The notes below the pieces were generated by a model that saw only the letters and a list, made by a program, of their open reading frames with translations, had not been told where the DNA came from and searched no databases. From the IMG/VR virus record IMGVR_UViG_3300029923_000008, positions 79,430 to 143,429 of that record: a stretch of 64,000 nt of DNA; one strand, 5' to 3'. This stretch comes from a virus. Shown piece after piece: positions 24,974-63,953 of the stretch (position 1 is its first letter; each line of letters starts with the position of its first letter). Position numbers and translations under genes: made by a program.

Positions 24974-25264
24974 TTAATGTTTTTTATGTTTAAATTCTAT
25001 TTTTTGCCTATATTTTTCTGATTCATTCTTTCTAAAATATAGGATATTATTAATTTCATCATCTGTATTAGTTGATAATTTTTCTATCTGTTTCAATTTT
25101 TTCTTTCTATCTTCCTTTTTCTTTCGTTGTTCTTCGTATTTTTCTAATATTTCTGAACATTTCGAATTCAATATGATATAATTTCCGCTTCCTTTCAATG
25201 ATTTATTGTGAATCATATTTGAAGCATCTAAGATTTTTTGATATAATTCAAGATTTTTTGGCAT
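24974..25264 (-). CDS. Charged coiled-coil protein, 96 aa
   Basis: Starts MPKNLELYQK at 25264, where the ATG shares one base with the preceding TGA. Residues 45-70 are very basic and coiled (EEQRKKKEDRKKKLKQIEKL). Function unknown. Last gene of the unit that begins with the polymerase piece. Confidence 0.7.
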   Translation of the reverse strand: MPKNLELYQKILDASNMIHNKSLKGSGNYIILNSKCSEILEKYEEQRKKKEDRKKKLKQIEKLSTNTDDEINNILYFRKNESEKYRQKIEFKHKKH

Positions 25265-44262: not shown

Positions 44263-46752
44263 ATGAGATATATTTATACGCCTAAATTTGATGGTACATT
44301 TACAATGAGTTGGATAGGTGCTCCAATGTATACAGATGAAATCTCAACTCAACTTCGTGATATTAAAACATTTTCAATTGTACCATTAAAAAGTATATCA
44401 TCAATTACAAATTTCACAGATGTAATAAAAGGTGAAACAGATGAACATTATTTTAAAAAATATTTTTCTTATAGTAATTTAAGAAGTGGAGTAAGTTATA
44501 GTGAAGTGAGCTATAGTGAATCTATGCCTATTACAGGAATTACTCAAGTGTATTGTGCATTGAATGACTTATATTTAAATCTATCATATTATAGAATTGA
44601 TGAAAATATTGATACAATACCTACATTAGCAATAAACACAATTGTAATTGAAGGAACTTATAATATTGAGGAAACTGATACCATTGTCGATATACCAGAT
44701 GATGATTTTATAATATTTAGTCCTAAAAATATTTATAAAGTTTTCAAATTAACAGGATATGAAGTTTATGGTGTAAATACAAATAATTTACAAATTAAAT
44801 ATAGATTTACTCAAGATAATGGTAGAACATATACTCCATGGGAACCTTTAACAACTGAAAATATATCAACAGTAAAAATAAATCCTATCAGATTTGCTCA
44901 AGTTGAATATTCTGTTTCTAAAAAAACAAATGGAATTACATCTAAAATATACGATATAATATTATTAGGAGATTTTCAAAATATTAATAAAAATTATCTT
45001 AAACTTAATAGATATGGAGTTAGAGAGGATTGCTCTTTGACATATCCATCCCTAAATACTGGTACAACCATTGATTATGTTGATAATCCAAATGCTATAT
45101 GTTTATGTGGAACAACAATTTATCAAACTGGAGGAGCAATTGATTATAATAGAGATTGGATAACAAAGGGATTGAGTTGTTATTTATCAGGAAATGTAGT
45201 AACAAAGTTAAGCTCACAAGTTAATGATCCTGGATTCAATTCAACCCAAACAGCAGCATCAGATGGTATTTTTAATCCATATGCTGGATCTATTAAAATT
45301 GGTAATTGGTATGCATATTTAGCAAACACTGTAGGTAAAATATTCGGATGGACAGTTGATTATCATTTAACAGATCCAGACGGAAAAGGAATTGATAGTA
45401 TTCTTCATGAATATCAATTATATAATATAGTAGATACACAAAAAATTAAAATAATAGTACCTGAAAATACATTTCCTGATAATCAAGTTCAAGTGAATGA
45501 ATATATGCTAGATATGATGGACACCTTTCAAGTTATAATACTAAAAGATGAATTTCATAATGCGTTTGGAATTGAAAAAAGACCGTCACAAAAAGATATA
45601 ATATTTTTTTGCCAGGCAAATCGTATGTACAGAGTAAAAAGTGCTCAAGTAAAAAGAGATGTGATGTATATGGGTATTTATTATAATGTTGTACTTGAAA
45701 AATATGAAAAACTTGCAAATGAAAAAAATCTTTCTACTAAATCAACAAATTTGATAGATATATTAACAAATAATAATACTATTGATTCATTATTTGGAGT
45801 TGAGATAAGAGAGCAAGAAGATAAAATAGTAAGTAAACAATTAAAACCAATTACACATGAAGTTTATAGATTAAATGTAAATCCTAAATTAAATATAATT
45901 AAAAAGGATATTTATAATTCTTTAAAGGATATAAAAATAGCTGATAGTTATTATAATTTATCTTCTTTACCATCTGGAATTACAGCCGTGTCATATACTT
46001 ACAAAGATTCAAATTTGAAAGTTAGTGATAATAGATCATTTAATGTTTGGTTCAATTTTAATAATATTTACGATACAAATAAAGCAATTGATGAAAGTAC
46101 ATTTAGGTCATATAATATCAATAGTACTAGTAATTTCGAATTTTTAAATAATTATGATTCAATTAATAACAAAGGATATAAATTATCATATAAAAATAGT
46201 AAAATTTCATTAACTATAAATAATATTGATTATAGTTTAACTGCAACAGGATTAACAACAAATATGTGGTACGGTTTAACTGTAAATTTAGATAATAGAC
46301 AAAGAGAAGTGAGTTTAGATTTATTTAAAAGAAGATACAATTATAAAATAACAATGTTTACACATGATTATAAGAGTGTTATATTAGATAATACTAACAC
46401 ATCTGGTATTACATATTATAACTCAAATGGATATAGACCAGTTAAAAATACTGAAATAGCTACCAGATTACCTGATACTAGTTTATATAAACTTGCATCA
46501 ATAAAATATGTTGATGGATATAATAATTCTGTTGTTCCATTAAACACATTTAATATAGATCAAACTATAACAATAAATTCATCTGATATTAAATTAACTA
46601 ATATTAGAATATATGATGATGTAATTCCTGATGAATCTAAATCTAATTTATTGTTACAGAGAGTTGTGCAAGATTCTAATAATTTGATATTAGCAGATAA
46701 TGCTACTAAAAAATTATTCACTAAAAATATTTATAATGATAGATGGGAATGA
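44263..46752 (+). CDS. Large structural protein, 829 aa
   Basis: A beta-rich protein with no clear named family. Residues 1-270 include SYSEVSYSESMPITGIT and a long strand region; the middle (about 400-480) has MLDMMDTFQVIILKDEF and KRPSQKDIIFFCQANRMYRVKSA; the last 250 residues look like a LamG/concanavalin-type jelly roll (FNVWFNFNNIYD, MWYGLTVNLDNRQREVSLDLF). This fits a baseplate or tail-tip protein. It is followed by tagged genes, overlapped as ATGA. Confidence 0.82.
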   Translation: MRYIYTPKFDGTFTMSWIGAPMYTDEISTQLRDIKTFSIVPLKSISSITNFTDVIKGETDEHYFKKYFSYSNLRSGVSYSEVSYSESMPITGITQVYCALNDLYLNLSYYRIDENIDTIPTLAINTIVIEGTYNIEETDTIVDIPDDDFIIFSPKNIYKVFKLTGYEVYGVNTNNLQIKYRFTQDNGRTYTPWEPLTTENISTVKINPIRFAQVEYSVSKKTNGITSKIYDIILLGDFQNINKNYLKLNRYGVREDCSLTYPSLNTGTTIDYVDNPNAICLCGTTIYQTGGAIDYNRDWITKGLSCYLSGNVVTKLSSQVNDPGFNSTQTAASDGIFNPYAGSIKIGNWYAYLANTVGKIFGWTVDYHLTDPDGKGIDSILHEYQLYNIVDTQKIKIIVPENTFPDNQVQVNEYMLDMMDTFQVIILKDEFHNAFGIEKRPSQKDIIFFCQANRMYRVKSAQVKRDVMYMGIYYNVVLEKYEKLANEKNLSTKSTNLIDILTNNNTIDSLFGVEIREQEDKIVSKQLKPITHEVYRLNVNPKLNIIKKDIYNSLKDIKIADSYYNLSSLPSGITAVSYTYKDSNLKVSDNRSFNVWFNFNNIYDTNKAIDESTFRSYNINSTSNFEFLNNYDSINNKGYKLSYKNSKISLTINNIDYSLTATGLTTNMWYGLTVNLDNRQREVSLDLFKRRYNYKITMFTHDYKSVILDNTNTSGITYYNSNGYRPVKNTEIATRLPDTSLYKLASIKYVDGYNNSVVPLNTFNIDQTITINSSDIKLTNIRIYDDVIPDESKSNLLLQRVVQDSNNLILADNATKKLFTKNIYNDRWE

Positions 46753-47102
46753 AATACATAAAATTTTTTGAAGGTATTAATGAAAAAAAATATTGGGTAG
46801 TTAATGTACGTGAGCCATATTTTGAAATAAGTATGAAAAAAATTGATGCATTAAATTGTTATAAAAACATTAAAGATGATGAAACATTTTCAATGTACAC
46901 ATACAAAAAAAAGAATAATAAAATTTATATAACATATGATCCAAATAGAAATTTTAATAACTTTAAATGGTGTATTTATGATGAATATGTTAAAGGTAAT
47001 ATAGAACGAGGTAGATTTGAGTATCAAGGAGAAATTGAAGTCACAAAACAAGATATAAAACAATTCAAATTAGAAAAAGAGACAAATAAGTTTAACATAT
47101 GA
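46749..47102 (+). CDS. KFNI-tailed paralogue, 117 aa
   Basis: Starts MKYIKFFEGINEKKYW at 46749, where the ATG overlaps the preceding TGA, and ends ETNKFNI. The body matches the four-gene family at 54604-55957 and 63624: KYW, SMKKI..., Y.Y...YDPN, F.W..YDEY, F.YQGEIE. Function unknown. Confidence 0.82.
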   Translation: MKYIKFFEGINEKKYWVVNVREPYFEISMKKIDALNCYKNIKDDETFSMYTYKKKNNKIYITYDPNRNFNNFKWCIYDEYVKGNIERGRFEYQGEIEVTKQDIKQFKLEKETNKFNI

Positions 47103-47959
47103 AATATATTAAGAAATATGAAATAGTAGATTATAAAGAAACTGATTTTGATGAAATAGATGAATATGACGGTTTTTTATATGCATACTCTGATAAACCT
47201 TTGACTAAAAAAAATTTTAGTAAAGCTTTAATATTTCCATATAATAGAGCAGATGCTTCAGATACAGGTAGTGAATATATTTATCAAATTAAATTAAATA
47301 AGCCAATATACAAAAAGAAAAGACTTATTGATATGATAGATGATGAAGATATTTTTAGTGATAAGAAGGACATTAAAGATGAACATTCTGGTTATTCTGG
47401 ATATTTTTTAAAGAATTATATGAATGATTGGCAAATTTATATAGAAGATGTTAATGATGTAGTAAGTTTCAAACTTGTAGGAGGATTTGTAATGTATGAT
47501 AAAAATAAGACATCAAGATTAAAAATAAAATATTCAGAAGAAACTGATAGATGGTTATACTTATATATATCAGGATCATTAAGATTACCAAAATTGACAC
47601 AAAATATTATAGATGAATTGAAACAATTTAGACCAACTGAATCAATAAAAATATATAAAGGATTAGAAGAAGTTCAAATTGTACATTCATCAGAAGTAGA
47701 TTCTCCTTATAAAAAAGGACAAACAATAAAATCATTTTTTAATTATCCAACTTCTTGGACTACTAACATATTAACAGCTATTAGATTTATTGATGATGAA
47801 CCATCAACACCTCCATTTGTTGCAGTTATGACTACTTCACCAGATGACATTTTAGTTGATGTACAGATGTTACCAAAGAAATACTATCATACTAATCAAA
47901 GAGAAATTATAATGCTACCAGGAACATATGAATATAAATTAGTATGGAAAGGAAAATAA
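47099..47959 (+). CDS. Putative ADP-ribosyltransferase with virion-type N-terminus, 286 aa
   Basis: The N-terminus is MKYIKKYE, shared with the tagged family. The C-terminal 100 residues match the ADP-ribosyltransferase fold: IKIYKGLE at 183-190 (where classical enzymes have YRG), TSWTTNILTAIRF at 218-230 (the STS-type strand), and NQREIIMLPGTYEYKLV at 266-282 (Q/ExE with E269, followed by the typical LPG). The arginine of motif 1 is a lysine, so activity is uncertain. T4 Alt, a packaged transferase injected with DNA that modifies host RNA polymerase, has the same three-motif pattern. This protein lacks the KFNI end. Confidence 0.7.
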   Translation: MKYIKKYEIVDYKETDFDEIDEYDGFLYAYSDKPLTKKNFSKALIFPYNRADASDTGSEYIYQIKLNKPIYKKKRLIDMIDDEDIFSDKKDIKDEHSGYSGYFLKNYMNDWQIYIEDVNDVVSFKLVGGFVMYDKNKTSRLKIKYSEETDRWLYLYISGSLRLPKLTQNIIDELKQFRPTESIKIYKGLEEVQIVHSSEVDSPYKKGQTIKSFFNYPTSWTTNILTAIRFIDDEPSTPPFVAVMTTSPDDILVDVQMLPKKYYHTNQREIIMLPGTYEYKLVWKGK

Positions 47960-47960
47960 A

Positions 47961-47986
47961 AAAAGAACCTTAATTAAGGTTCTTTT
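47961..47986. terminator. Bidirectional terminator
   Basis: Perfect palindromic hairpin with arms AAAAGAACCTTAA and TTAAGGTTCTTTT between convergent genes. Confidence 0.85.
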
Positions 47987-47990
47987 CATT

Positions 47991-48476
47991 TTAATTTTCA
48001 ATCATTTTTTTAATATCTTTAGATAAATAATATCGAATTTTTTTATCTTTAATTTTAAATTCATAAGCTTCAAATGTTTTAATCTGCTGTTGCAAATTAC
48101 AAATGAAATTATTCAAATCTACTATTGATTCAGTATATACTGGATCTGAATCCCAATAATCAGGAAATCTTTTCTTAAAACTTTCTAATTCATTTTCTAC
48201 TATTCTAACTGATAAATAAACATTTTTATCAAATATATTTGATTTTATACTTATCATATCTTTCATATGTACAGTAAATCTATGTACTAAATTATCTGTT
48301 TCTATTGTTTTAAGAAGTCCTATTGCATATGCATCATTCTCTGAAATGACAATTGGTTTATTTTCTTTTACAATTGCTTGTATTTCTTGCTCATTTTTAT
48401 CTTTAAGAACAAATCGCTTGTAGTCTGACCATAAGCAACGTCTAAAAATATCATCAATTGTTAGTGTAATAATCAT
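47991..48476 (-). CDS. Conserved hypothetical protein, 161 aa
   Basis: Begins MIITLTIDDIFRRCLWSDYKRFVLK. Charged and helical, with no motif for a known activity. It resembles conserved phage proteins of unknown role. Single leftward gene between two rightward units. Confidence 0.78.
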   Translation of the reverse strand: MIITLTIDDIFRRCLWSDYKRFVLKDKNEQEIQAIVKENKPIVISENDAYAIGLLKTIETDNLVHRFTVHMKDMISIKSNIFDKNVYLSVRIVENELESFKKRFPDYWDSDPVYTESIVDLNNFICNLQQQIKTFEAYEFKIKDKKIRYYLSKDIKKMIEN

Positions 48477-48577
48477 ATAATATCGAATTTTTTTTTTGTT
48501 ATTAATAAATTGTATTAATATTATTTTTTTTTGTTTATTTTTTTTTAATATATAAGATTAAATATCAAAGATTTTAG

Positions 48578-48585
48578 TACCTTTG
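48578..48585 (+). promoter_or_regulatory. Candidate -7 box
   Basis: TACCTTTG fits TAnnTTTG, 36 bases before the ATG at 48622, but no TTG lies at the proper upstream distance. The 48477-48621 gap holds no gene. Confidence 0.3.
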
Positions 48586-48621
48586 TGATGTTTAATAAAA
48601 ACATATTATCGTTCTCTTATT

Positions 48622-49392
48622 ATGAAATATATCAAACATCACAATGAAAATTATATGAATAAAAAAATAACTGATATTAGAGAGTTTTTTTCGAATTTAA
48701 AAATGATAACATATCACTTTGAAGATTATAATATATTTAATATTTTTAAAACTGATATTGAAAATGAACTAAATGTGAAATGTGAAATGCCATTTTTTGG
48801 ATTTTCAAATTTATCTGAATCATTCTTTATTCCTATAATAGATACAGTAACTGTTCAATTACATAAAATGTTTAATATGATAATTAATAATGATTATATT
48901 GATATATATGATGACTGCAATTCAGGAAAATTAGGTTATAATAGATTTATTATTTACGAGAAAAATGGTAAATATTTTTCCAAAATAGGAAATCACATGT
49001 CTGATATAATTTCTAGAGAAGTTAATGATGAAAAATTTAAGTCATATTATTACATTAGATTCAGAACAAGAAGTTTTAATAATAGTGAAAAAATAGAAGA
49101 AGAAAAAGAAACAAACATAATTAATGACATAATAGATACACATAACCTTAATGATAAATATAACATATCAATATATAGTAGTGGAAGTCTACGTGAAATT
49201 AAAATAATTAGTAAAAATAGAATAATATTAAATTCTGATCAGAAAAAAGAAATTGAAAACGCTAAATTATTCGGATTTGATAAATATCAAGAATTGGAAA
49301 AATTATTATCAAAACAGAAAGAACATAATGATAATATAGAGAATATTACTCATATTGAAAAAGAATTTAATTTAAATAAATTTAATTTATAA
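48622..49392 (+). CDS. KFNL-tailed protein, 256 aa
   Basis: Starts MKYIKHHNENYMNKK and ends NLNKFNL, with a charged coiled stretch before the end. The body has a predicted alpha/beta domain (IIYEKNGKYFSKIGN) and no recognised family. First of four co-directional tagged genes. Confidence 0.82.
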   Translation: MKYIKHHNENYMNKKITDIREFFSNLKMITYHFEDYNIFNIFKTDIENELNVKCEMPFFGFSNLSESFFIPIIDTVTVQLHKMFNMIINNDYIDIYDDCNSGKLGYNRFIIYEKNGKYFSKIGNHMSDIISREVNDEKFKSYYYIRFRTRSFNNSEKIEEEKETNIINDIIDTHNLNDKYNISIYSSGSLREIKIISKNRIILNSDQKKEIENAKLFGFDKYQELEKLLSKQKEHNDNIENITHIEKEFNLNKFNL

Positions 49393-49396
49393 AAAC

Positions 49397-50215
49397 ATGA
49401 AAAATTATTTACAATACATCAAAGAAGCTAAAATGTCTAAACTCATTCAACCAAGTGATGAAGAAATTGAAGAAGCTGAAAAAATATTAGCAGAAGGAAA
49501 AGATCCAGATTCAATGAAAGATGTTGGTTGTTTTTATATAGATGTATCTGGTAAATACTCAGTATATTATACATTTTGGAGATGGAATCCAAAATCTGCA
49601 TCTTGTTATTATATTTGTAATCTAAGTACTGACTTTATGACTGCAGTTAAAAAAGCAGCTAAAGCTTCAGGTAGGATTCAAGTAATAATTGATAGATTTG
49701 GAACATATGCTGGACTTTTTCAAGCAGAAAAAAATAAAATCTTAACATTTGGAAAACATAGAGGGCAAACAATTGGAGAAGTATTTGTAGAAGATCCTCA
49801 ATATGTTGTTTGGTTATCTAAAGATTTTAATGGAAATGCTGATATGGCAAAAGAAATTCAAGAATATAAAAAATTATTTTTTGAAACATTGACAAAGAAA
49901 AACCAAGAAGAAAGTACAAGTAAATATATAGGAGAAGTTGGTAAAAAAATTGAAATAAAAGCAACTGTTTATAATTTTAATACAACTCAGAGCGCATTTG
50001 GAACACAATATACCTGCAAACTAATAGATGATGATGGTAATAGATATATAGCTTATAATATTGGCAGAACTCTTAGAAAAAATGATGTTGTATATATGAC
50101 AGCAAAAGTAAAAGAGCATAAAGAAATAGTAGGAATTAAATTTACTTCTATATACTATTGTAAGATAACTAATGTTTTTAATTTGGACGATGATATGGCA
50201 AAATTCAATTTATAA
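49397..50215 (+). CDS. KFNL-tailed protein with FGKHRGQTIGEV domain and OB-like domain, 272 aa
   Basis: Starts MKNYLQYIKEAK (similar to T4 capsid-targeting starts) and ends DMAKFNL. Residues about 114-140 read ILTFGKHRGQTIGEVFVEDPQYVVWL, matching the short domain found at the end of exonuclease-X-like and related nucleic-acid proteins. Residues 180-260 look like an OB fold (GKKIEIKATVYNFNTTQSAFG, VVYMTAKVKEHKE). Together these suggest a DNA- or RNA-binding protein carried in the capsid. Confidence 0.78.
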   Translation: MKNYLQYIKEAKMSKLIQPSDEEIEEAEKILAEGKDPDSMKDVGCFYIDVSGKYSVYYTFWRWNPKSASCYYICNLSTDFMTAVKKAAKASGRIQVIIDRFGTYAGLFQAEKNKILTFGKHRGQTIGEVFVEDPQYVVWLSKDFNGNADMAKEIQEYKKLFFETLTKKNQEESTSKYIGEVGKKIEIKATVYNFNTTQSAFGTQYTCKLIDDDGNRYIAYNIGRTLRKNDVVYMTAKVKEHKEIVGIKFTSIYYCKITNVFNLDDDMAKFNL

Positions 50216-50218
50216 ATT

Positions 50219-50632
50219 ATGATGATGTATGAGAGTTTTTTAAAAACAATATTTAATCCAATTGAAGTTAAATTCGCTGATGCTATTATAATTTTTTTAA
50301 ATATAGTTAAGCCTGAATGTAATTGGAGTTATAAAAAATTTGATGATGATGTTTGGATATATGCAAATTCGAACAAATTTGTATTTAAAATAGTTAAAGG
50401 TGATCACAAATCATACTATAATATCAATTGTGATTTTCATTATAATCAGAATTATTCAATACTAGGTGGTCATGTGATTGAATTTTTGTTACATCTTTTT
50501 AATAAAGATTATATGACGATTTTAGATATTACTGTATCAATTGATGATATTAAATATGTAATAAAAAAATTAACAAAAGAAAATTTTGATGATTTTTCCA
50601 TTAAATATACTGCAAATAAATTTAATTTATAA
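50219..50632 (+). CDS. KFNL-tailed tandem paralogue A, 137 aa
   Basis: Begins with three ATG codons and MMMYESFLKTIF, and ends KLTKENFDDFSIKYTANKFNL-type (last residues ANKFNL). Its neighbour at 50635 has the same start and end with a diverged middle, so this is a tandem duplication. Function unknown. Confidence 0.82.
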   Translation: MMMYESFLKTIFNPIEVKFADAIIIFLNIVKPECNWSYKKFDDDVWIYANSNKFVFKIVKGDHKSYYNINCDFHYNQNYSILGGHVIEFLLHLFNKDYMTILDITVSIDDIKYVIKKLTKENFDDFSIKYTANKFNL

Positions 50633-50634
50633 TT

Positions 50635-51060
50635 ATGATGATGTATGAAAGTTTTTTAGATTTTTTTAGTAAAAAAACAAGTCCTACTATTAAATTAGCA
50701 GAATCATTAGTTAATTTTATTAATTCAATTGATTATAATTTAAAATGTTATTATGAAAAAAACGGAAGATTTATATCAATAAATAATAATTTCAATAATC
50801 TTAGATTATTGACTATTGATTCATATAAAATGAGAACTATGAATTTACAGTTTATTAAAATTAATGTGTATCATGCAAATTTAAATGAGAATGAAAATCT
50901 TGTTGATTTTATTTATGAAATTTTTGATGTCGATATTAATCTTAATTATATTTATTTTGATATAACAGAAAAAGATATTCCAAATTGTATTGAAAAATTA
51001 ACAAAAGAAAATTATGATAACTTCCTAATAAAAAAATCATCTGATAAATTCAATATATAA
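50635..51060 (+). CDS. KFNI-tailed tandem paralogue B, 141 aa
   Basis: Starts MMMYESFLDFFSK (triple ATG) and ends KLTKENYDNFLIKK...DKFNI. The KFNI is encoded by AAA TTC AAT ATA, different codons from most copies, and no gene follows it, so the end is selected as protein, not as a ribosome signal. Function unknown. Confidence 0.82.
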   Translation: MMMYESFLDFFSKKTSPTIKLAESLVNFINSIDYNLKCYYEKNGRFISINNNFNNLRLLTIDSYKMRTMNLQFIKINVYHANLNENENLVDFIYEIFDVDINLNYIYFDITEKDIPNCIEKLTKENYDNFLIKKSSDKFNI

Positions 51061-51087
51061 AAAAGACTGTCAATTGACAGTCTTTTT
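51061..51087. terminator. Bidirectional terminator
   Basis: Hairpin AAAAGACTGTCAATTGACAGTCTTTT between the tagged genes and the convergent 51092 gene. Confidence 0.85.
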
Positions 51088-51091
51088 TATT

Positions 51092-51313
51092 TTAATCTAC
51101 CCATTTACCCTTTCTGTCATCAAATCTTTTTTCAAGATCAATCAAATGATAACTCCATTTGTTAGGAAAATCTAATAATCTTAAGTTTAATTTTTGTACA
51201 TCTTTGTGTACTTCAGTTAATTTAGCTTCAATCAATATTGATGGAGCTTCGTAACCATTACGGTTTACGATTTCGACTCTCCAAAGTCGAGTTTTAGATA
51301 TTGTTTTCATCAT
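51092..51313 (-). CDS. Hypothetical protein, 73 aa
   Basis: Small alpha/beta protein (RLWRVEIVNRNGYEAPSILIEAK). The ATG ATG start is inside a hairpin (left arm CATCATC, right arm GATGATG) that may sequester it. No family recognised. Confidence 0.75.
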   Translation of the reverse strand: MMKTISKTRLWRVEIVNRNGYEAPSILIEAKLTEVHKDVQKLNLRLLDFPNKWSYHLIDLEKRFDDRKGKWVD

Positions 51314-51326
51314 CGTTAATGATGAT
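51303..51326 (-). promoter_or_regulatory. Start-codon hairpin
   Basis: CATCATC, ATTAAC loop, GATGATG. The right arm contains both Met codons of the gene at 51313, so folding could block translation. A late-type run (ATTATATATATATTAC) lies near 51361-51376. Confidence 0.4.
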
Positions 51327-51388
51327 GATTGGCGGAGAATGTAAATTAATTTTCATAAGTAATATATATATAATTTTTTAAATAAAGT

Positions 51389-52945
51389 TTATAGTTTAAT
51401 CTTTAATTCGTCATATGGATATTGTTGTAATTTATATACTTCATCTCTTCTTGATTCATATTGTTTCCACAATATTGTTTTATAATCAGGATGAAAAATA
51501 TCAACCAAATCAAACACTATTAGTTTTGACTTTTCTTTATGTAATCTCAATCCTCTACCAATTGCCTGACGTATTATTTTAGGTTCTTTGTAAGAATCTG
51601 CAAAGATAATATTAGCAATTGCTTTCACAGAAACACCTGTTGAAAATACACCGAATGATGCTATGAGTATTTTAGGATTACCTGATGTATCTTCTAGTTT
51701 TTTCTTAATATATTCTCTTTTCTCAGTAGATGTGCCACCATCCATATAGAATACATCCTTTCCAATACAATTATCTTTAATGTGATTATATAATTCTGTA
51801 CCATATACAATAGTATGAAATAATATAAGTGAATTTGATTTGAATTTATCTACTAAGTTTTTAATGAATGTCATTCTTTTAGCTGAATTGTGTATGTATT
51901 CTCTTTCCAACGTCCAAGCTTGCTGTCCATTTGACTTTTTAATACTATTAACTCCTTCTGCAAACTTATGATTATCATGATGTAACATAATAACTTTTAT
52001 TTTAAGATCAGAAATTAATCCTTTATCAATTAACTTTCTTGCACTAATATTTAATAATTTTGGACCCAATAATGATTGAATAGTTAATATTTCAACTGAA
52101 GCATCAGATGGATAAGAACCACTCATACCAAATCTAAATTTAGCAGTTCCAAAAGTTTTTGTTAAAATAGTTTGAATGGTAACAGCCTTAGCTGTATGAG
52201 CCTCATCACAGGCGACTATTTCAAATTGTGAAAACCACTCTTTTGGATATTTTTCAAGAGATTGATAAGTACCAATATATACATTAGGTAATTTTTCACC
52301 TTCTCTATATTTTCTTGGTTTATCACTCATTACTTCATCTATACGAATATCTAATGGAGTTTTATTATCATTATTGAAACCGTAGTTATAGTCATTCAAA
52401 TCATTATAAAATTGTGTAACTAAACTTATACTTGGAACAATCAATAGAACTTTCGCTTTTTGATTTACGTTTTTTAAGTAATAAAAAAGTAGAGTACCAA
52501 ATACTAATGATTTACCTCCAGCAGTTGCGATTTCAATTAACCCATATTGATGTTTGAGTAATTGATATATGGCATCTACTTGATGCTCATAAGGCATAAA
52601 TGATTTACCATCAGGAGTTTTATGATCTTTATAAAAATCCTCAATAAATTCTTGTAAATTATCTTTTGATATATCTTTATTACGTGGAAATTGGTCTTGA
52701 TTTTCTATTATAAATTTGTAACCATACTCTTTACAGCATTTATATATTTCACCCCATAAGCCAAAGTTAATTACTCCGTCTGAAAAGTAGCTTATATCGC
52801 CATTCCAAACACCGAGTTTGAATCTTTTCATAAAACGATAATTATTAACTTTTCTTGTTAAATATAGTTTAAGTTGATTATATTCTCCTTTGGTTGATTC
52901 AGTTAAAATTAATTTTGAATTATCTTTATTTAGTTTAAATTTCAT
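51389..52945 (-). CDS. uvsW: UvsW-like SF2 DNA/RNA helicase
   Basis: A 518-aa ATP-dependent helicase of the T4 UvsW type, which unwinds branched DNA and R-loops during recombination-dependent replication. Walker A ATAGGKS lies near residue 139, motif II is DEAH near 247, motif III is SGS near 274, and motif VI is QAIGRGLRLH near 467. The N-terminal 100 residues match the UvsW-type substrate-binding domain (FMKRFKLGVWNGDISYF). Complete and likely active. The 10-base overlap with the tagged gene at 52935 and the UvsY-like gene further upstream suggest one recombination operon. Confidence 0.93.
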   Translation of the reverse strand: MKFKLNKDNSKLILTESTKGEYNQLKLYLTRKVNNYRFMKRFKLGVWNGDISYFSDGVINFGLWGEIYKCCKEYGYKFIIENQDQFPRNKDISKDNLQEFIEDFYKDHKTPDGKSFMPYEHQVDAIYQLLKHQYGLIEIATAGGKSLVFGTLLFYYLKNVNQKAKVLLIVPSISLVTQFYNDLNDYNYGFNNDNKTPLDIRIDEVMSDKPRKYREGEKLPNVYIGTYQSLEKYPKEWFSQFEIVACDEAHTAKAVTIQTILTKTFGTAKFRFGMSGSYPSDASVEILTIQSLLGPKLLNISARKLIDKGLISDLKIKVIMLHHDNHKFAEGVNSIKKSNGQQAWTLEREYIHNSAKRMTFIKNLVDKFKSNSLILFHTIVYGTELYNHIKDNCIGKDVFYMDGGTSTEKREYIKKKLEDTSGNPKILIASFGVFSTGVSVKAIANIIFADSYKEPKIIRQAIGRGLRLHKEKSKLIVFDLVDIFHPDYKTILWKQYESRRDEVYKLQQYPYDELKIKL

Positions 52946-53120
52946 TTAGTGCCTTTAATTTTTCTTTTCTTATGATAGAATTTGCTTTTATATAATATTT
53001 TTTATAACTTTTTTTATTTTTTAAAAAAAAATTATAATCCCCATAAATTTTTGATTTGAAATCAAATTTAGCATAAAATTCATCAAGGAATATTTTATAT
53101 GCTAATTCATCTATTTTCAT
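52935..53120 (-). CDS. Small protein with KLKALNEI tail, 61 aa
   Basis: Basic and aromatic, starting MKIDELAYKIFLDEFY and ending SIIRKEKLKALNEI. One of the last two tail-bearing genes of this type. It overlaps both neighbours. Function unknown. Confidence 0.75.
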   Translation of the reverse strand: MKIDELAYKIFLDEFYAKFDFKSKIYGDYNFFLKNKKSYKKYYIKANSIIRKEKLKALNEI

Positions 53121-53346
53121 CTATTTCATTTAATTTATTAATTCTGATTTTTTTTATACAAACAGTATTAATATGTTTATTAATTATATCATTTAATAAT
53201 TCAATAGATATTATTTCTTCATTTACATAATAACTATATACAGAGTTATCTAAATGTTTTATAATAATTCTTGGTTTAAATATTCCTTCTGATATCATAG
53301 AAGCTGATTTAATTCCATAGGTTTTTAATTCTTCATTGATTAACAT
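53107..53346 (-). CDS. Small protein with KLNEI tail, 79 aa
   Basis: Beta-rich N-terminal half (KPRIIIKHLDNSVYSYYV) and an end of KKIRINKLNEIDENR. An AGGAGG lies 11 bases before its ATG. Function unknown. It overlaps the UvsY-like stop by one base. Confidence 0.75.
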   Translation of the reverse strand: MLINEELKTYGIKSASMISEGIFKPRIIIKHLDNSVYSYYVNEEIISIELLNDIINKHINTVCIKKIRINKLNEIDENR

Positions 53347-53804: not shown

Positions 53805-53852
53805 AGTTATTACTTTATTTTATTTTTATGTATTATAAATAACTAGTATAGT

Positions 53853-54587: not shown

Positions 54588-54603
54588 TATTTTTTAATTT
54601 TTT

Positions 54604-54951
54604 TTATATGTTGAATTTATTAGCAACTAACTCAGATTCATCTATGTTTATTATACCGCCGAATTTATAACCTTTTTTATCCATCCATTTGTCATTTATA
54701 CCTCCATCATAGTACTCATATCCCCATTTTTTAAGAGGTTCATATTCTGGATGATAAACAATATACATATAATTTCTTCTATAATCTTTTATTGTTAATA
54801 CATTTTCCAATGCATACTTAACATAATTTTGAATTCTGTCTTTAGGACAACTTATTTGTTTTAGAGAATTTTTGAATCTTTTATCTGTTGGAACTAACCA
54901 ATATATTGTATCATCATATAAATCATCTTCAAAGAATTTTAAATATTTCAT
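54604..54951 (-). CDS. KFNI-tailed paralogue 1, 115 aa
   Basis: Starts MKYLKFFEDDLYDDTIYWL and ends VANKFNI. Like the next three genes it has IYWL(V/L)PTD.RF..SLKQI.C, a Y.(Y/F)..Y region and a Y.F.G.(I/V)NID.SE block. Probably the most diverged of the four. Function unknown. Confidence 0.85.
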   Translation of the reverse strand: MKYLKFFEDDLYDDTIYWLVPTDKRFKNSLKQISCPKDRIQNYVKYALENVLTIKDYRRNYMYIVYHPEYEPLKKWGYEYYDGGINDKWMDKKGYKFGGIINIDESELVANKFNI

Positions 54952-54954
54952 ATT

Positions 54955-55290
54955 TTATATATTAAATTTATTTGCTGCTAATTCTGAATCATCTATATTT
55001 ACAATACCCATAAATTTATAATTATTATCTTCATAATAATTATCAGTCAATTTATTTTTATATTCATTCCAACCCCATTTATCATCCACATTAAAATTGT
55101 TATTAGAATTGTCATATCCAACAAATATATATTTACATTCTTTTAAGCTGCTACTATCTAAAAATCCCCTTATTTTTCTATCTGTACAATTTATTTGTTT
55201 TAATGATTTTACAAATCTATCATCAGTTGGAAGTAACCAATATTTCCTTTTAGAATTTCTTTTATTTTCGAATTTTTTAATATATTTCAT
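54955..55290 (-). CDS. KFNI-tailed paralogue 2, 111 aa
   Basis: MKYIKKFENKRNSKRKYWLL start, LAANKFNI end, and the core KYWLLPTDDRFVKSLKQINC. Closest to the genes at 55290 and 55631. Tight spacing to both neighbours. Function unknown. Confidence 0.85.
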   Translation of the reverse strand: MKYIKKFENKRNSKRKYWLLPTDDRFVKSLKQINCTDRKIRGFLDSSSLKECKYIFVGYDNSNNNFNVDDKWGWNEYKNKLTDNYYEDNNYKFMGIVNIDDSELAANKFNI

Positions 55291-55631
55291 TATAAGTTAA
55301 ATTTATTTGCGGCGAATTCAGATTCATCTATGTTTATATTACCCATAAATTTATAATTATTATCTTCATAATAATCTTCAGTTGGCTTACCTCTGTATCT
55401 ATTCCAGCCCCAATTATAATCATCAATATTATTATTATTATTTGAATTTAGATTTGGATTATAACCTACAAATATATAATTATGTTTTTTTATTTCTTTG
55501 CTATTTGAAAAACCTTTTATTTTTTCAATAGAGAAATTCAATTGTTTTAGTGATTTTTTAAATCTTTTATCTGTTGGTATTAGCCAATACATTTTTTGAC
55601 TATATTTTTCAAATTTTTTAATATATTTCAT
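55290..55631 (-). CDS. KFNL-tailed paralogue 3, 113 aa
   Basis: MKYIKKFEKYSQKMYWLIPTD start, FAANKFNL end, and a TDKRFKKSLKQLNF core. Shares YYEDNNYKFMG(I/N)(V/I)NID with paralogue 2. Overlaps its neighbours by one base each. Function unknown. Confidence 0.85.
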   Translation of the reverse strand: MKYIKKFEKYSQKMYWLIPTDKRFKKSLKQLNFSIEKIKGFSNSKEIKKHNYIFVGYNPNLNSNNNNNIDDYNWGWNRYRGKPTEDYYEDNNYKFMGNINIDESEFAANKFNL

Positions 55632-55957
55632 TATAAGTTAAATTTATTTACTGCTATTTCTACATCATTTAAATCTATATTTACAGTGCCCATAAATTGA
55701 TAATTATCAGATTCAAATGAATCATTAGTCATTTTACCATTATATGGATTCCAACCCCATTCGTTAAGTGAATATGGCTTATAACAAATAAATACATATT
55801 TCATATTTCGTATTCTACTATTATTCAAAAATTCTTTCATTTTGTCTCTATCACATTTTATTTGAATTAGAGATTTTTTAAATCTATCATCAGTTGGTAA
55901 AAGCCAATAACTCTCAGATTCATATAGATAAGATTCGAATTGCTTAATATTTTTCAT
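55631..55957 (-). CDS. KFNL-tailed paralogue 4, 108 aa
   Basis: MKNIKQFESYLYESESYWLL start, EIAVNKFNL end, and LPTDDRFKKSLIQIKC core. Ends one base into the next gene. Function unknown. Confidence 0.85.
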   Translation of the reverse strand: MKNIKQFESYLYESESYWLLPTDDRFKKSLIQIKCDRDKMKEFLNNSRIRNMKYVFICYKPYSLNEWGWNPYNGKMTNDSFESDNYQFMGTVNIDLNDVEIAVNKFNL

Positions 55958-59394: not shown

Positions 59395-59415
59395 TATTAT
59401 ATTTTATTATATTTT

Positions 59416-62400
59416 TTAAGATCCAATACTTCTTACTGATGATGTTCTGTTTCTAAATATCTTAAACACTATTTCAAATTCAAATGGTCTATTTAAGCTT
59501 TCAGATTCAATAAAGATTCTGAGTTTTTTTGTAACTGATGGAGATGTAGATAAATTTGTAGGAAATGATATTGAATCACTTGTTCCTCCTGATAATTTAA
59601 ATAAAAATTTAATAGGTAATGTAAATTTGCTATTAGAATTTATCAATTTAACTCCACTTTTATCAGAATAAACATAATCTGAAATATTATCAATATGTGG
59701 ATGTATCGTAACAGGAAAATCAGTTTGATAATCATTGTCAGCACTCCAAGTAACTCCAGTCCAATTAACATCATTAAATATATTTATTGGAGTTGAATAA
59801 GTACCTCCTGAATTTGGTGTTGTAGTTCCAGTTAATCCAACATTCCAATTTTTAGAGTACAAAACTTGTCCTAATCCATTAGAATTATATGTTTTTCCTG
59901 AATTATATATTGCATTTGTTCCTGATACATCAGAAATCCAAATAAATTGATTATCTACTTGTGTTCTAAGCATATCTTCTGAATCAATATAAGTTGCTAA
60001 TGATCCATTTGAATATTGTGTATTATAAAATCTATTATCACCATTAACAGTAGGTACATATTTTCTATATGAAAGTAATCCTAATTGTGCAGATTGTGAA
60101 ACATTTCCAAATTGTATGTAGAAATCATCAGAAGAATATATATTATTGTAATATGTTCTTGTTGTTGTACCAGATAATTCTGCATAATCTTCACATGTAA
60201 TATTTTGAATTATAGATGCACCATTTTCTATTGTAACATTTGTTGAATTCTTATATAAACTAATTGAAAGTTCTCCTTTTGCATTAGATACAATTTCTTC
60301 AAGAGCAGTTATTTTATCTGTTAATAATTTTAAATAATCATTTAACATAATTATATTACCTGAGCTATCTTTAAATGATGTGCCTACATTTACATCAGTA
60401 TGAGCAACATATAAATCATTAACATAATATGATTGCTGAAGATGCGTTGTTAATCCTTTTGCATTAAAATCACTTTCTATTTGTGAATATATTTGTTCAT
60501 TTTGAGCAGATTGTAAAATAGTAGAATTTTCGTTACCTACTTGAGAAAGATCAGTTGGAAAATCAATTGTCATAACGTCAGACCAATCAGATACTATAAG
60601 TGAGTCTGGAAATCCAACTTCTGATATAGATTTAATTTTAATTTCAACTGTTTCATTTGGATGTAAAGATATGTCTAATTGATTAACTTTAGGTGAATTT
60701 GCATCAGAAACATTTTCAACATCCCATGTCCAAACATCTAAAGCTCTATTATAAGTTCTTGTCCTTGCATCTGTCATATATTGATTCCAATTGGAAAAAT
60801 ATCCAGTTTCAGTAACATTTTGAGTTGTTATACTTGGATTAAGATATGCTTTAGTTTGATCAGTAATATCTCCAGTAGATGTAGAATTTGTGTATATAGT
60901 TTCTGTAAGATTTAAATTAAATCCTTCTGTTGTAGGCTCAGAACCTCCTGTAGCCTTATATCTATATTGAACAATAAACTGAACAACTTCTTGTTTTTGT
61001 TGTTCTCCTACTGTATTAATTATAATAGGTTCTGGAATACTCCAAAAACCTCTTACCCTAAATTTTGCAGTTACACTTGAAATTGAACCAGTATTCTCAG
61101 CAGTAATTTGACTAACTATCGATGTGTATGATTTAGTTAATGATGATTGCTGACTTATCAAAGTATTTAATTGATTTTGACTTGCCTGCTTATCTGATGT
61201 TGATTTGTATTGCTTAGTACTAAGTTCTTTATTCTGTTCAACTATAGCATCACTTAATTGTTCTAATTGTGATTTTATAGATACTTTTTGAGTATTTAAA
61301 TTTTGAATTTTTGCTGAATCCGCTGTATCAGTTAAATGTGTATTTATTTGTAAAACTTTAAAATTACTAGATACTAAAGTTGGTACATTTGGTGTTATTC
61401 CAAATTTACTAGGTATATTTTTAGATATTAAATCTTTTAATATAGAACCATAATCAAATACAGTATCACTATAGAATTTTGTCATAGAAACAGTACTATT
61501 TGTATCTAAAACTAAATTGTTACTATAAAAAGATGTACCATAAGACCATGTTGATGAAATGACATTTGAATCTGTATTAATAGGTTTGATAAAAACTACA
61601 TTGTATTCATCATAACCAATAGATATTTTTATTGTTTTTTCTGGTAATACAGGACTATAAATCTTCAATCCTTGTGATAGTATTGGAACAGGTTCTAACC
61701 CTTCCAACCTCTCTAAAATAACTCTATAATTACTTTTAGCTGTACTAACTTCCTTTATTGTCCATAATGTTGATGAATCTTTTTTATTTATTATTAATTC
61801 ATCTCCTACTGATAATTGTCTAGTGTTACCTGTATAATCATAATAAGTTATCGATCCTAATACATACCACATTTTACTATTAATTGTATCATTATCAATA
61901 CCAACCACATCAAATATTCCATAATATTGAAGTTTATCATAATCTAAGTCAAATACTTGCTCATCATAAGGTTGATTACTATGAAAAACACCAGTATTTT
62001 TTATATTTGTGTACCATGAAGTCAAATCATCAATAAAAACATCATTTCTATTTAAGAATTTAGTTTCAAAATCTGATTTTGAATTTGAACCATCTGATGT
62101 TAAATTACCATATTGATCTGTCTGAAATTTTATTATATATCTACGTGATAATACCTTTTTTACTTTTTGATCAATTCTATCAGTTAAATCAAGTTCTATC
62201 GCTAACATAGGATTATAAAGAGATTCAAAAAAAGAATTGTTTATAGATGTGAATTTTTTTATACTATCTAAACTATCAATAGGACTAGGCTCACTATTCA
62301 AATCATCTACATATATTCTTCTCATAGTTGTACCATCTGATACATAAGCTGTACTATCAGATAATCCTGCTAATTTCTGAATATTTCTATTTGCAATATC

Positions 62401-62598
62401 TAATTCATTTTTTAATTGACCAACTGTTGGAAATTGATATGATGATGTTGTTCCATCTGTATTCATTAAGTTAACGTTTACAACAGAATTTCTACTAGCT
62501 ACAACATCATTTAATTTTGTCATAACTTCTACTGAATTCTTATTTAATACAGCTAGTTGTTCAGCTAAAGACACAAAACTGTTTTGTTGATTTATCAT
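59416..62598 (-). CDS. Giant structural protein with coiled coil, 1060 aa
   Basis: The N-terminal 100 residues (NSFVSLAEQLAVLNKNSVEVM) are helical. A coiled coil occurs near 425-490 (LNTQKVSIKSQLEQLSDAIVEQNKELS), and fibronectin-like and beta-rich regions follow (KINQL-type VNQLDISLHPNETVEIKIKSI). The C-terminus looks like a tail-spike or baseplate domain with repeated Gly-Thr turns. Function unknown; first gene of the unit, behind the late-type element at 62620-62635. Confidence 0.83.
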   Translation of the reverse strand: MINQQNSFVSLAEQLAVLNKNSVEVMTKLNDVVASRNSVVNVNLMNTDGTTSSYQFPTVGQLKNELDIANRNIQKLAGLSDSTAYVSDGTTMRRIYVDDLNSEPSPIDSLDSIKKFTSINNSFFESLYNPMLAIELDLTDRIDQKVKKVLSRRYIIKFQTDQYGNLTSDGSNSKSDFETKFLNRNDVFIDDLTSWYTNIKNTGVFHSNQPYDEQVFDLDYDKLQYYGIFDVVGIDNDTINSKMWYVLGSITYYDYTGNTRQLSVGDELIINKKDSSTLWTIKEVSTAKSNYRVILERLEGLEPVPILSQGLKIYSPVLPEKTIKISIGYDEYNVVFIKPINTDSNVISSTWSYGTSFYSNNLVLDTNSTVSMTKFYSDTVFDYGSILKDLISKNIPSKFGITPNVPTLVSSNFKVLQINTHLTDTADSAKIQNLNTQKVSIKSQLEQLSDAIVEQNKELSTKQYKSTSDKQASQNQLNTLISQQSSLTKSYTSIVSQITAENTGSISSVTAKFRVRGFWSIPEPIIINTVGEQQKQEVVQFIVQYRYKATGGSEPTTEGFNLNLTETIYTNSTSTGDITDQTKAYLNPSITTQNVTETGYFSNWNQYMTDARTRTYNRALDVWTWDVENVSDANSPKVNQLDISLHPNETVEIKIKSISEVGFPDSLIVSDWSDVMTIDFPTDLSQVGNENSTILQSAQNEQIYSQIESDFNAKGLTTHLQQSYYVNDLYVAHTDVNVGTSFKDSSGNIIMLNDYLKLLTDKITALEEIVSNAKGELSISLYKNSTNVTIENGASIIQNITCEDYAELSGTTTRTYYNNIYSSDDFYIQFGNVSQSAQLGLLSYRKYVPTVNGDNRFYNTQYSNGSLATYIDSEDMLRTQVDNQFIWISDVSGTNAIYNSGKTYNSNGLGQVLYSKNWNVGLTGTTTPNSGGTYSTPINIFNDVNWTGVTWSADNDYQTDFPVTIHPHIDNISDYVYSDKSGVKLINSNSKFTLPIKFLFKLSGGTSDSISFPTNLSTSPSVTKKLRIFIESESLNRPFEFEIVFKIFRNRTSSVRSIGS

Positions 62599-62619
62599 GT
62601 TTAATAATTTAATTTTTAT

Positions 62620-62635
62620 CTATATATAAAAAAAC
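62620..62635 (-). promoter_or_regulatory. Late-type promoter element
   Basis: Read leftward: GTTTTTTTATATATAG, 21 bases before the ATG at 62598. Confidence 0.45.
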
Positions 62636-62680
62636 TCTATTTCATAAGAAATAAAATGATGCAAGATCATGATATATATA

Positions 62681-63310
62681 TTATATATTATATTTATCCG
62701 AATTTATAATAGCTTCTTCTGCTCCTTTGAAATATTTTTTTAATTCCTTTGGTACCCCGTATTTAGCTAACATAATATCTTTATTTAATGAATCTTTAAT
62801 TATTTCTAAAAATCCTTTTTCTTTAGATTCAAAAATTTTCATGAAATTATCAATATATTTAACAATAGGATATAATTTTATCATAAGATTATAATTACAT
62901 TCTCTTGTTGCTCTTTTCATATTTTTTCCATGCATCTCACTATCACCTGAATTTCCAGTAATATAATAATTAAATTTTCCAAATTTATTATCTATAGTAT
63001 TTCCACTTCCACGATATTTAATGATTATACTCATAGCATACATATTTCTCCATCTAACTGTAATATTAGTATATACTTCTCTGACTTTATTGCGTCCATT
63101 TTCATCTTTTTCGTTATTTAAGAAATCAACATTTTTTTGAAATTGATAGTCAATAGCATTTTGATTATTTTTATATCTTTTCTTTAGATCATTATATGTA
63201 GGAGTTAATAATTTTGCCATATCATCTGATATATATAATGTGTTATTACTAATATAAAAAGGTTGCTGTTCTATAATATTATTATTTTCAAAATATTTTA
63301 AGTATTTCAT
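62681..63310 (-). CDS. KYNI-tailed protein, 209 aa
   Basis: Starts MKYLKYFENNNIIEQQ and ends NSDKYNI, a Phe-to-Tyr variant of the tag. Helical and charged body with KFGKFNYYITGNSGDSEMHG. No family recognised. Overlaps the next gene as ATGA. Confidence 0.82.
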   Translation of the reverse strand: MKYLKYFENNNIIEQQPFYISNNTLYISDDMAKLLTPTYNDLKKRYKNNQNAIDYQFQKNVDFLNNEKDENGRNKVREVYTNITVRWRNMYAMSIIIKYRGSGNTIDNKFGKFNYYITGNSGDSEMHGKNMKRATRECNYNLMIKLYPIVKYIDNFMKIFESKEKGFLEIIKDSLNKDIMLAKYGVPKELKKYFKGAEEAIINSDKYNI

Positions 63311-63627
63311 ATGTTAAATTTTTTTAAATTAGTTTTAAAAATTAAATCTTTTGCTTCTGTATTTGTTAATTTTCTAGTAATTAATATTGGTCTAACTTCA
63401 TCAAGTACTTTATCATTATAAAATAATAATTTATATGTTCTAATATAATGATCTTCATGATCATCATCTTTATCATCATTTACCTCAATTATAATAGCAT
63501 GATCATCAATAATTCCATTTGTAGCATAATTAAAATAATAGTCTTTTATTAGAGGTAAATCGACTAAAACATAATCACCTATTTCATATTCATATTCATT
63601 ATATTCAAATTTTTTCAAGTATTTCAT
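63307..63627 (-). CDS. KFNI-tailed SH3-like protein, 106 aa
   Basis: Starts MKYLKKFEYNEYEYEIGDYVLVD and ends LKKFNI. The middle (IGDYVLVD, RTYKLLFYNDKVLDEV) resembles a small SH3-like barrel. Overlaps both neighbours by 4 bases. Function unknown. Confidence 0.82.
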   Translation of the reverse strand: MKYLKKFEYNEYEYEIGDYVLVDLPLIKDYYFNYATNGIIDDHAIIIEVNDDKDDDHEDHYIRTYKLLFYNDKVLDEVRPILITRKLTNTEAKDLIFKTNLKKFNI

Positions 63628-63953
63628 ATATTAAATTTATTTGAGTGTTTTTCTATTTCTACTTCTTCTAATTCTTTCTTTGATAGTTTAATATCACCAT
63701 TATATTTATAATATTTATATGTACCATCATTTAATGATGCGTCCCAATATACATTATCATTTTTTATTTCCATTACAATATATAATACACTATCAAAAAT
63801 ATCAGAATCAGAGAAAAAATAAATAATACTATCTATTGTTTTATCAGGACATCCAATTTTTTTCAAAGATTTTCTAATAATAATAGGATCATAAATAACT
63901 GACCAATATTCACCATAATCATTATTGGACTCAAATTTCTTTAAGTATTTCAT
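63624..63953 (-). CDS. KFNI-tailed paralogue, 109 aa
   Basis: Starts MKYLKKFESNNDYGEYW and ends KHSNKFNI. Related to the four-gene array: EYW, RKSLKKIGCPDKTI, Y....W, Y.YNGDIKL.KKELEE. Function unknown. Confidence 0.82.
   Translation of the reverse strand: MKYLKKFESNNDYGEYWSVIYDPIIIRKSLKKIGCPDKTIDSIIYFFSDSDIFDSVLYIVMEIKNDNVYWDASLNDGTYKYYKYNGDIKLSKKELEEVEIEKHSNKFNI

Follow-up and report, generated by a model that had tools for sequence, protein, structure and literature searches.

Why should many otherwise unrelated small proteins of one virus begin alike and also end alike? The question is raised by a 64,000 base stretch of DNA (the window), bases 79430-143429 of the 143,429 base IMG/VR virus record IMGVR_UViG_3300029923_000008, which has a G+C content of 24.5% and is part of a T4-like huge phage; by UvsW its nearest named huge phages are LR756501-LR756504 and LR745206 (48-56% identity). 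A first-pass annotation, made from the sequence alone, noted that fifteen proteins of the window end in KFNI or KFNL and one in KYNI (the end tag), that most begin MKYIKKFE or similarly (the start tag), and that they might form a set sorted to one place, perhaps packaged and injected. The analysis described here supports that sorted-set reading in part, and the answer that we favor, tentatively, is that the tagged proteins are phage-head cargo with a T4-type targeting peptide at the front, a lineage-specific docking peptide behind, and probable injection into the host. The proteins concerned are as follows (lengths in amino acids, aa; tag positions include the stop codon):

11096-11458, minus strand: tagged protein, 120 aa, start MKHLKKFE, end SSKFNI, tag 11096-11110
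11478-12422, minus strand: tagged ankyrin-repeat protein (Ank_2, 5e-6), 314 aa, start MIKKYNMF, end AEKFNL, tag 11478-11492
13877-14161, minus strand: tagged protein, 94 aa, start MKVNKFEE, end TNKFNI, tag 13877-13891
14163-14501, minus strand: tagged protein, 112 aa, start MKVNKYKE, end AKKFNL, tag 14163-14177
14829-15410, minus strand: start tag only, 193 aa, start MRYIKNYEE, end TEKGII
46749-47102, plus strand: tagged protein of the YWLLPTD family, 117 aa, start MKYIKFFE, end TNKFNI, tag 47088-47102
47099-47959, plus strand: start tag only, 286 aa, start MKYIKKYE, end VWKGK
48622-49392, plus strand: tagged protein, 256 aa, start MKYIKHHNE, end LNKFNL, tag 49378-49392
49397-50215, plus strand: tagged protein with ExoX-like C-terminal domain, 272 aa, start MKNYLQYIKEA, end MAKFNL, tag 50201-50215
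50219-50632, plus strand: tagged protein, 137 aa, start MMMYESFL, end ANKFNL, tag 50618-50632
50635-51060, plus strand: tagged protein, 141 aa, start MMMYESFL, end SDKFNI, tag 51046-51060, with a hairpin and a run of T after it
54604-54951, minus strand: tagged protein of the YWLLPTD family, 115 aa, start MKYLKFFE, end ANKFNI, tag 54604-54618
54955-55290, minus strand: tagged protein of the YWLLPTD family (modelled), 111 aa, start MKYIKKFE, end ANKFNI, tag 54955-54969
55290-55631, minus strand: tagged protein of the YWLLPTD family, 113 aa, start MKYIKKFE, end ANKFNL, tag 55290-55304
55631-55957, minus strand: tagged protein of the YWLLPTD family, 108 aa, start MKNIKQFE, end VNKFNL, tag 55631-55645
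62681-63310, minus strand: tagged protein, 209 aa, start MKYLKYFE, end SDKYNI, tag 62681-62695
63307-63627, minus strand: tagged protein, 106 aa, start MKYLKKFE, end LKKFNI, tag 63307-63321
63624-63953, minus strand: tagged protein of the YWLLPTD family, 109 aa, start MKYLKKFE, end SNKFNI, tag 63624-63638

The end tag is not a chance occurrence. All sixteen start positions listed in the first-pass annotation are ATG codons of open reading frames (ORFs) that end in KFNI, KFNL or, at 63310, KYNI, and of the window's 88 non-overlapping ORFs with 50 aa or more, 15 end in KFN(I/L), where composition predicts 0.0068 (Poisson P ~2e-45). The enrichment over shuffled controls is plain: 10,000 shuffles gave a mean of 0.008 such ends and a maximum of 1, and the next most frequent four-residue ends are present in 2 copies each. 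With both ends removed the sixteen proteins fall into 10 families, and six of them are paralogues of a single family; the number of independent tags is therefore below 16, yet far above chance. The start pattern recurs as claimed, in a looser form, with 11 of the 16 matching MK[YHVN][ILN]x(1,2)[FY] and the others beginning MIKKYNMF, MKYIKHHNE, MKNYLQYIKEA or (two proteins) MMMYESFL; the proteins at 14829-15410 and 47099-47959 have the start without the end. As for the middles, which had been described as ankyrin-, SH3- and OB-like, a Pfam search of ten window proteins recovered the ankyrin repeats (Ank_2, 5e-6, at the cut-off) and an ExoX-like C-terminal domain (2e-8) and supported no other; the SH3-like and OB-like assignments were returned by no library. 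The start-only protein at 47099-47959 is possibly an ADP-ribosyltransferase, judged by eye (YKGL, PTSWTTN, QRE), a likeness unconfirmed by hidden Markov models, by a PDB sequence search (a single match, E 0.53) or by a structure model, which was built from three sequences, had a mean predicted local distance difference test score (pLDDT) of 51 and was not used.

How far the end tag extends was determined by surveying related records (G numbers) and the LR records; G000, G005, G006 and G007 were covered wholly and G004 to 220,000 of its 221,902 bases, as separate stretches of at most 20 kb in which border-spanning ORFs were lost, and, for the survey of starts and ends, LR756502, LR756504, G014, G019 and G017 each in part. 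A strict tag was defined as K(F/Y)N(I/L/V/M), and a looser 'broad' motif was also used for orthologue pairs and LR stretches. KFN(I/L) ends are found on 21 of 222 ORFs in G000, 89 of 561 in G005, 12 of 74 in G006 and 68 of 410 in G004, with ~0.03 predicted from internal rates in G000 and in G005. At the DNA level, counts of the motif before a stop codon and in a reversed control are 23 vs 7, 21 vs 4, 68 vs 3, 65 vs 2, 85 vs 3, 103 vs 7 and 16 vs 0 in G000 to G006 respectively, 8 vs 6 in G007 and 0 vs 1 in G008. The corresponding values for the far larger LR756501, LR756502, LR756504 and LR756500 are 13 vs 5, 11 vs 3, 15 vs 10 and 16 vs 7, with 0, 1, 1 and 0 broad-motif ORF ends in the stretches covered, and 12 more contigs, retrieved with the UvsW genes of LR756500 and of LR756502, have at most 15 matches each. 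On these counts KFN(I/L) is the mark of one clade. A DNA pattern in which the tag and its stop overlap a following MKY start occurs in 117 stretches in IMG/VR, and a literature search found no title or opening abstract describing such an end tag.

Within the clade the end tag is conserved, as the first-pass annotation had expected. Among 105 orthologue pairs with the broad tag in either member, taken from six pairwise genome comparisons in which proteins recur, 104 carry it in both, the sole exception being a 31% identical G000-G004 pair. With the strict pattern, 46 of 53 G004-G005 pairs have the tag in both members and the other seven have K replaced by N or Q on one side with (F/Y)N kept. 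These 53 pairs agree at 146 of the 159 K, F and N positions, a value that follows partly by construction from the choice of tagged proteins, compared with 4055 of 6326 mid-protein positions, 298 of 389 in the first eight residues and 235 of 423 in the eight preceding the tag; the last tag residue is identical in just 24 of the 53, with swaps between Ile and Leu. Synonymous changes between G004 and G005 are more frequent at the tag (Asn 19/53 vs 63/368 elsewhere; Phe 15/47 vs 42/264), and between G000 and G005 about as frequent there as elsewhere (Asn 2/19 vs 26/186; Phe 4/15 vs 23/128). The variation of codons reported at the end is also evident in the whole record, where 26 tags have 20 distinct DNA ends, and the copy said to have no gene after it, 50635-51060, is indeed followed by its hairpin and T run. 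Because the tag is kept in orthologues while synonymous codons change freely, it is under selection at the protein level and not as DNA, in agreement with the earlier conclusion.

Start and end tags are also strongly associated with one another. ORFs with both, with the start only and with the end only number 69, 11 and 32 of 561 in G005 (Fisher 3e-51), 66, 10 and 13 of 410 in G004 (8e-52), 14, 4 and 14 of 222 in G000 (2e-11) and, with a variant end tag, 14, 14 and 12 of 455 in G007 (2e-12), using start profiles trained on other genomes, some orthologues included. The protein cores between the tags are diverse. When the ends are stripped, 225 tagged proteins form 69 core groups by single linkage, a cautious count, since SH3-like (by eye) and leucine-rich proteins are lumped together in one of them, and just 9 untagged ORFs across four genomes resemble a tagged core. 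Pfam matched ankyrin repeats in 11, leucine-rich repeats in 2 and the ExoX-like domain in 1 of 101 tagged G005 proteins; apart from these and a few weak single matches, the protein libraries suggested nearly no function.

The identity of the end tag changes with lineage. G007, with a UvsW that is 77% identical, has no KFN(I/L) end among its 455 ORFs and has 26 ends of the form KKYN(I/V)(I/L), KKYNISL or KKYNI, distributed over 23 core groups. Reciprocal best matches show that the same orthologous proteins carry KFN in one clade and KYN in the other: matches with G007 tagged in both members number 4 of 89 for G005, 2 of 52 for G000, 2 of 60 for G004 and 1 of 20 for G006, the ExoX-like protein recurring among them (the G007 orthologue of 49397-50215 ends QKYNII), and those tagged solely in the KFN member number 2 for G005 and 3 for G004. 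One end-tagged G007 protein is an ADP-ribosyltransferase (ART-PolyVal, 2.5e-20). A third tag, NADDFG(F/L/M)(F/L)DN or altered forms of it, is present on 12 of 656 ORFs in LR756500, the first 10 found representing 7 core groups, and on 10 of the 40 ORFs there with a start score of at least 4. The NADDFGFFDN-like tags of this record lie at loci L109, L115, L118, L214 and L215, and leucine-rich repeat proteins are among the carriers.

A structural model indicates where the two ends lie. The YWLLPTD family has 23 tagged members with a mean column identity of 30%, and its invariant columns are F7 and the tag K, F and N, the latter three partly by construction since the members were picked from the tagged set; one YWLLPTD-like ORF without a tag is present across the four genomes. 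For 54955-55290 AlphaFold gives a confident model (mean pLDDT 84.6) in which residues 2-11 score below 50, residues 101-110 average 66, residue 111 is at 39 and the chain is coil after residue 105. This one model suggests that the conserved ends lie outside the fold and resemble linear recognition motifs. The fold itself gave 50 PDB matches up to E 10, the best at 1.9 and none below 0.001. Because the tag stands exactly at the C-terminus, permits interchange of Ile and Leu, lies outside the modelled fold and changes with lineage on the same proteins, we suggest that it is read by a groove on a co-evolving phage partner.

The back-end signal looks to be a new one that differs between lineages, and the front one looks like a known head-targeting signal. 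The start motif is conserved at positions 2, 4 (I/L), 7 (F/Y) and 8 (E), giving a peptide of ~10 residues at the N-terminus with hydrophobic or aromatic residues at 4 and 7; in T4 internal protein III (IPIII), according to the available text of PMC9026906, residues 4 and 7 serve in targeting and residues 8 and 10 in processing. A profile built from 197 tagged proteins of three relatives and run on 283 T4 ORFs, gp67 being left out of the ranking, placed gp61.1 (MKTFKEFIKED) first, IPI (MKTFKEFTSTT) second, IPIII 14th and IPII (MKTYQEFIAEA) 15th. Start scores of at least 4 are found on 64 of 303 ORFs in LR756502, 18 of 383 in LR756504, 24 of 248 in G014, 24 of 312 in G019 and 12 of 153 in G017. 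Under the stricter threshold of 6, 53 of the 303 LR756502 ORFs and 15 of the 383 from LR756504 still qualify, compared with a null rate at internal Met of at most 0.2%.

Head genes provide a second connection. Searches of the window's own record with PF03420 and PF07068 gave no match in one search and a weak match (4e-4) in another, and no head genes; T4-type head genes lie on sister contigs, with capsid matches of 9.5e-231 in G029 and 8e-54 in G027 and the order portal, protease-scaffold, capsid (portal and protease being assigned by position and likeness to the LR records). In G027, which shares its sample source with a contig whose UvsW is identical to that of the window, a tagged gene (MKVNRFNES at the start, TDKYNL at the end) stands between the portal and protease-scaffold genes, the place corresponding to that of core genes 67 and 68 in T4; G029 has none. 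Moreover, ORFs of G034, G025 and G022 begin MKKF(K/E/D)E(Y/F)IKE and continue with the arm of the mature capsid protein just past the propeptide (arm BLASTP 2e-9), with a Glu in the column of the capsid Glu at the cleavage site predicted from T4 likeness. Because the targeting peptide replaces the propeptide in these three ORFs with the Glu aligned, the front peptide appears to be tied to the capsid propeptide. The recovery of T4 internal proteins by one of two profiles, the capsid-arm fusions and the tagged gene within a head module all agree with the likeness to T4 capsid targeting peptides first remarked on in the window, and on this comparative footing we consider it fairly well supported that the front peptide is of the T4 capsid-targeting type.

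Other ORFs at capsid loci deserve mention. Small proteins joining a T4-like targeting peptide to the mature capsid N-terminal arm are encoded at L429:1543-1794, L434:802-1185 and L435:1255-1647. Capsid-fragment-like ORFs, some with a second C-terminal motif (see below), occur at L433:1276-1665, L430:1213-2061 and L438:1197-1697, and are possible decoys or assembly inhibitors. In many huge phages (L210, L108, L082, L436, L438, L229-L307) an ORF of 600-830 aa intervenes between portal and capsid; in the LR records it holds a peptidase S77 match, and protease and scaffold look to be fused in these huge phages.

If the tagged proteins are cargo of the phage head, their first 8-10 residues would act as a targeting peptide, attached to the prohead core through the hydrophobic or aromatic side chains of residues 4 and 7 and cut off after the conserved Glu by the prohead protease. 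The mature protein would retain KFN(I/L)-COOH as an address on a tail outside its folded domain, and the tail would dock on a lineage-specific partner inside the prohead, thereby raising loading, holding small cargo in place or positioning it for ejection; the set would then probably enter the host together with the DNA. We infer packaging, cleavage, injection and the binding partner of the end tag alike. A bolder proposal, which we regard as rather doubtful, is that a two-ended code loads ~100 or more host-facing proteins per genome into each head, the front peptide being cut off and the C-terminal one left for docking; KFN(I/L), KKYN(I/V)L or NADDFGFFDN would be read by a co-evolving head component that would also exclude the cargo of rival phages.

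A number of observations weigh against this picture of head cargo with two addresses. An end tag is lacking from the capsid protein, from the protease-scaffold and from all three capsid-arm fusions. At 71 of 80 capsid loci of relatives there is an upstream ORF, 66 of the 71 ending in (R/K)F(K/R)x(I/L/V), typically ERFKN(I/L), which is close to the tag; mimicry of the scaffold by the tag is nevertheless not supported, the two scaffolds of the tagged clade (2/2) ending in AFDKLNS. No common end was found on start-tagged ORFs in the covered parts of LR756502, LR756504, G014, G019 and G017, and 30 of 40 start-tagged ORFs in LR756500 are without its end tag. Because start tags occur without a common end in relatives, the end tag is not needed for packaging in general, and since it also varies by lineage it cannot be a general packaging signal. 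The first T4 profile ranked Alt 70th, gp22 210th, gp68 233rd and gp21 270th, and a profile from 38 LR756502 start motifs missed the T4 internal proteins (ranks 59, 66 and 67). ART-PolyVal relatives are common in phages (46 records), with tags not noted there. The T4 prohead protease prefers Ile or Leu at the third residue of its cleavage site, (I/L)xE, and this position (P3) is Ile or Leu in just 16 of 76 scored G005 start tags (27 of 50 in LR756502); because (I/L)xE is infrequent in G005, cleavage specificity there must be looser if these peptides are cut. To these may be added an unexplained over-use of AAC and ATA codons at the tag, and the fact that tagged operons are not distinguished by the late promoter TATAAATA.

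The lack of a common end in the five relatives, within the parts covered, together with the 11 of 80 start-tagged G005 proteins that have no end tag, also speaks for the chief rival to head docking, a serious though doubtful one, in which the start tag alone is the prohead address and the end tag does another job, for example as a C-terminal stability signal that prevents or times breakdown by a protease of host or phage, or as an unfolding handle before ejection. C-terminal degrons have a free aliphatic end, and the tag is likewise exactly C-terminal with such an end. However, its variation on orthologues, from KFN(I/L) to KKYN types, is easier to square with a phage partner that co-evolves than with a host protease that is conserved, and the docking partner could be capsid or portal.

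A less probable alternative is that the set is sorted elsewhere than to the virion, such as to a replication compartment or membrane, and that the start motif is merely T4-like. The failure of one of the two T4 profile tests would fit this, and short 'GDYVL'-type proteins (SH3-like by eye) are also present with a different C-terminal motif, so that there seem to be at least two addresses per genome. Set against it are the front tag joined to the mature capsid arm at the predicted cleavage Glu, the recovery of T4 internal proteins by the first profile and the tagged gene within the head module. The second motif, approximately R(K/R)xK(L/I)xK(L/I)N, is carried by 16 of 222 ORFs in G000, 46 of 561 in G005, 51 of 410 in G004 and 10 of 74 in G006, KFN-tagged ORFs excluded, where fewer than 1 per genome is expected (0.3 in G005). 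It is nearly absent outside the clade (5 of 455 in G007, 0-3 in six other records), and MK(Y/H)(I/L) starts are few among its carriers (1 of 46 in G005, 3 of 51 in G004). In the window it is found on small proteins at 2087-3451, 6602-7756, 23675-25770 and 52935-53346. The window also encodes an NAD synthetase at 35231-37003 (phrog_36784, 6e-38).

Codon use bears on a third possibility, that KFN(I/L) and its stop are the by-product of a DNA or RNA junction element such as a late promoter, re-initiation signal or cassette recombination site. Many tagged genes are in tandem with 4-base overlaps, and the first-pass account of variable codons had not included the bias at the tag: the Asn codon is AAC in 51 of 99 tags in G005 (14% in the genome), 38 of 69 in G004, 10 of 26 in G000 and 1 of 15 in G006, and Ile is encoded by ATA 45 times and ATT 2 times, neither bias being present at untagged ends. 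In G004 the AAC excess is stronger in tandem (36/59) than in isolated copies (5/18). However, G005 has no such tandem excess (38/77 tandem, 12/21 isolated), isolated copies bear the same tag, AAC in the G007 tag (3/26) is near its level at untagged ends (22/163), and the synonymous changes between G004 and G005 are commoner at the tag, not rarer. A late promoter overlapping the stop was rejected, TATAAATA having 54 matches in the window with 40 expected and none at a tag, as was one at most 80 bases upstream of operon heads (1/4, 2/17 and 2/18 of tagged heads vs 8/85, 13/116 and 20/194 of others). We consider a nucleic-acid element very improbable and close to refuted, and the codon bias could reflect descent of many tags from few ancestors. 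Finally, descent of all tagged proteins from one expanded family, with the ends as its slowest-evolving part, is hardly credible: three core groups of 69, 24 and 23 members do account for 116 of the 225 proteins, but the 69 groups include ankyrin and leucine-rich repeats and an ExoX-like domain, and conserved ends outside the confident part of the single modelled fold need a functional reason.

If the tagged proteins are indeed head cargo, the two-end pattern would group dozens of huge-phage proteins as an injected class from sequence alone, and would provide a direct list of candidate counter-defence and takeover proteins as well as a portable C-terminal tag by which proteins could be loaded into phage heads. 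Since the end tags differ between lineages, co-evolution of tag and receptor could be tested.

Comparison with known systems shows which features are shared. In the Mahaphage clade, for which Bacteroidetes hosts are predicted (available text of PMC7162821), LR756502, LR756504 and LR756500, whose membership is presumed, carry the start motif, whereas it is scarce in LR756501 (4 of 298 ORFs covered); the LR records are without the KFN excess of the window's clade, and the end tag of LR756500 differs. The targeting sequence of T4 IPI, IPII and IPIII is likewise a short N-terminal peptide on unrelated small head proteins, with aromatic or hydrophobic residues at 4 and 7 and a Glu near its end, and the clade also has a T4-type head module and an ADP-ribosyltransferase in the set; Alt is a packaged ADP-ribosyltransferase of T4 (PMC9026906, available text), as the tagged ART-PolyVal protein of G007 may be. 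T4 differs in having a handful of such proteins rather than scores of ORFs, in its consensus (MKTYQEFIAE rather than MKYIKKFE), and in internal-protein ends that are unlike the C-terminal tag borne by most tagged ORFs here. The giant phage SPN3US and its relatives also have many packaged and ejected head proteins, cut by a protease after Glu, but their propeptides are far longer (several exceed 100 residues and one has 20), and the available text of PMC5694885 describes no shared C-terminal tag. Closest to the back-end signal, perhaps, are the cargo loading peptides of encapsulins, which are short, usually C-terminal, attached to unrelated cargo and dock within an HK97-fold shell, with N-terminal versions also known (PMC7355545, available text). 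By analogy, docking would here take place in the prohead of a tailed phage rather than an encapsulin, with two ends per protein, and the likeness lies in a conserved C-terminal peptide on unrelated cargo, outside the fold in one model, that would dock within a shell of HK97 fold.

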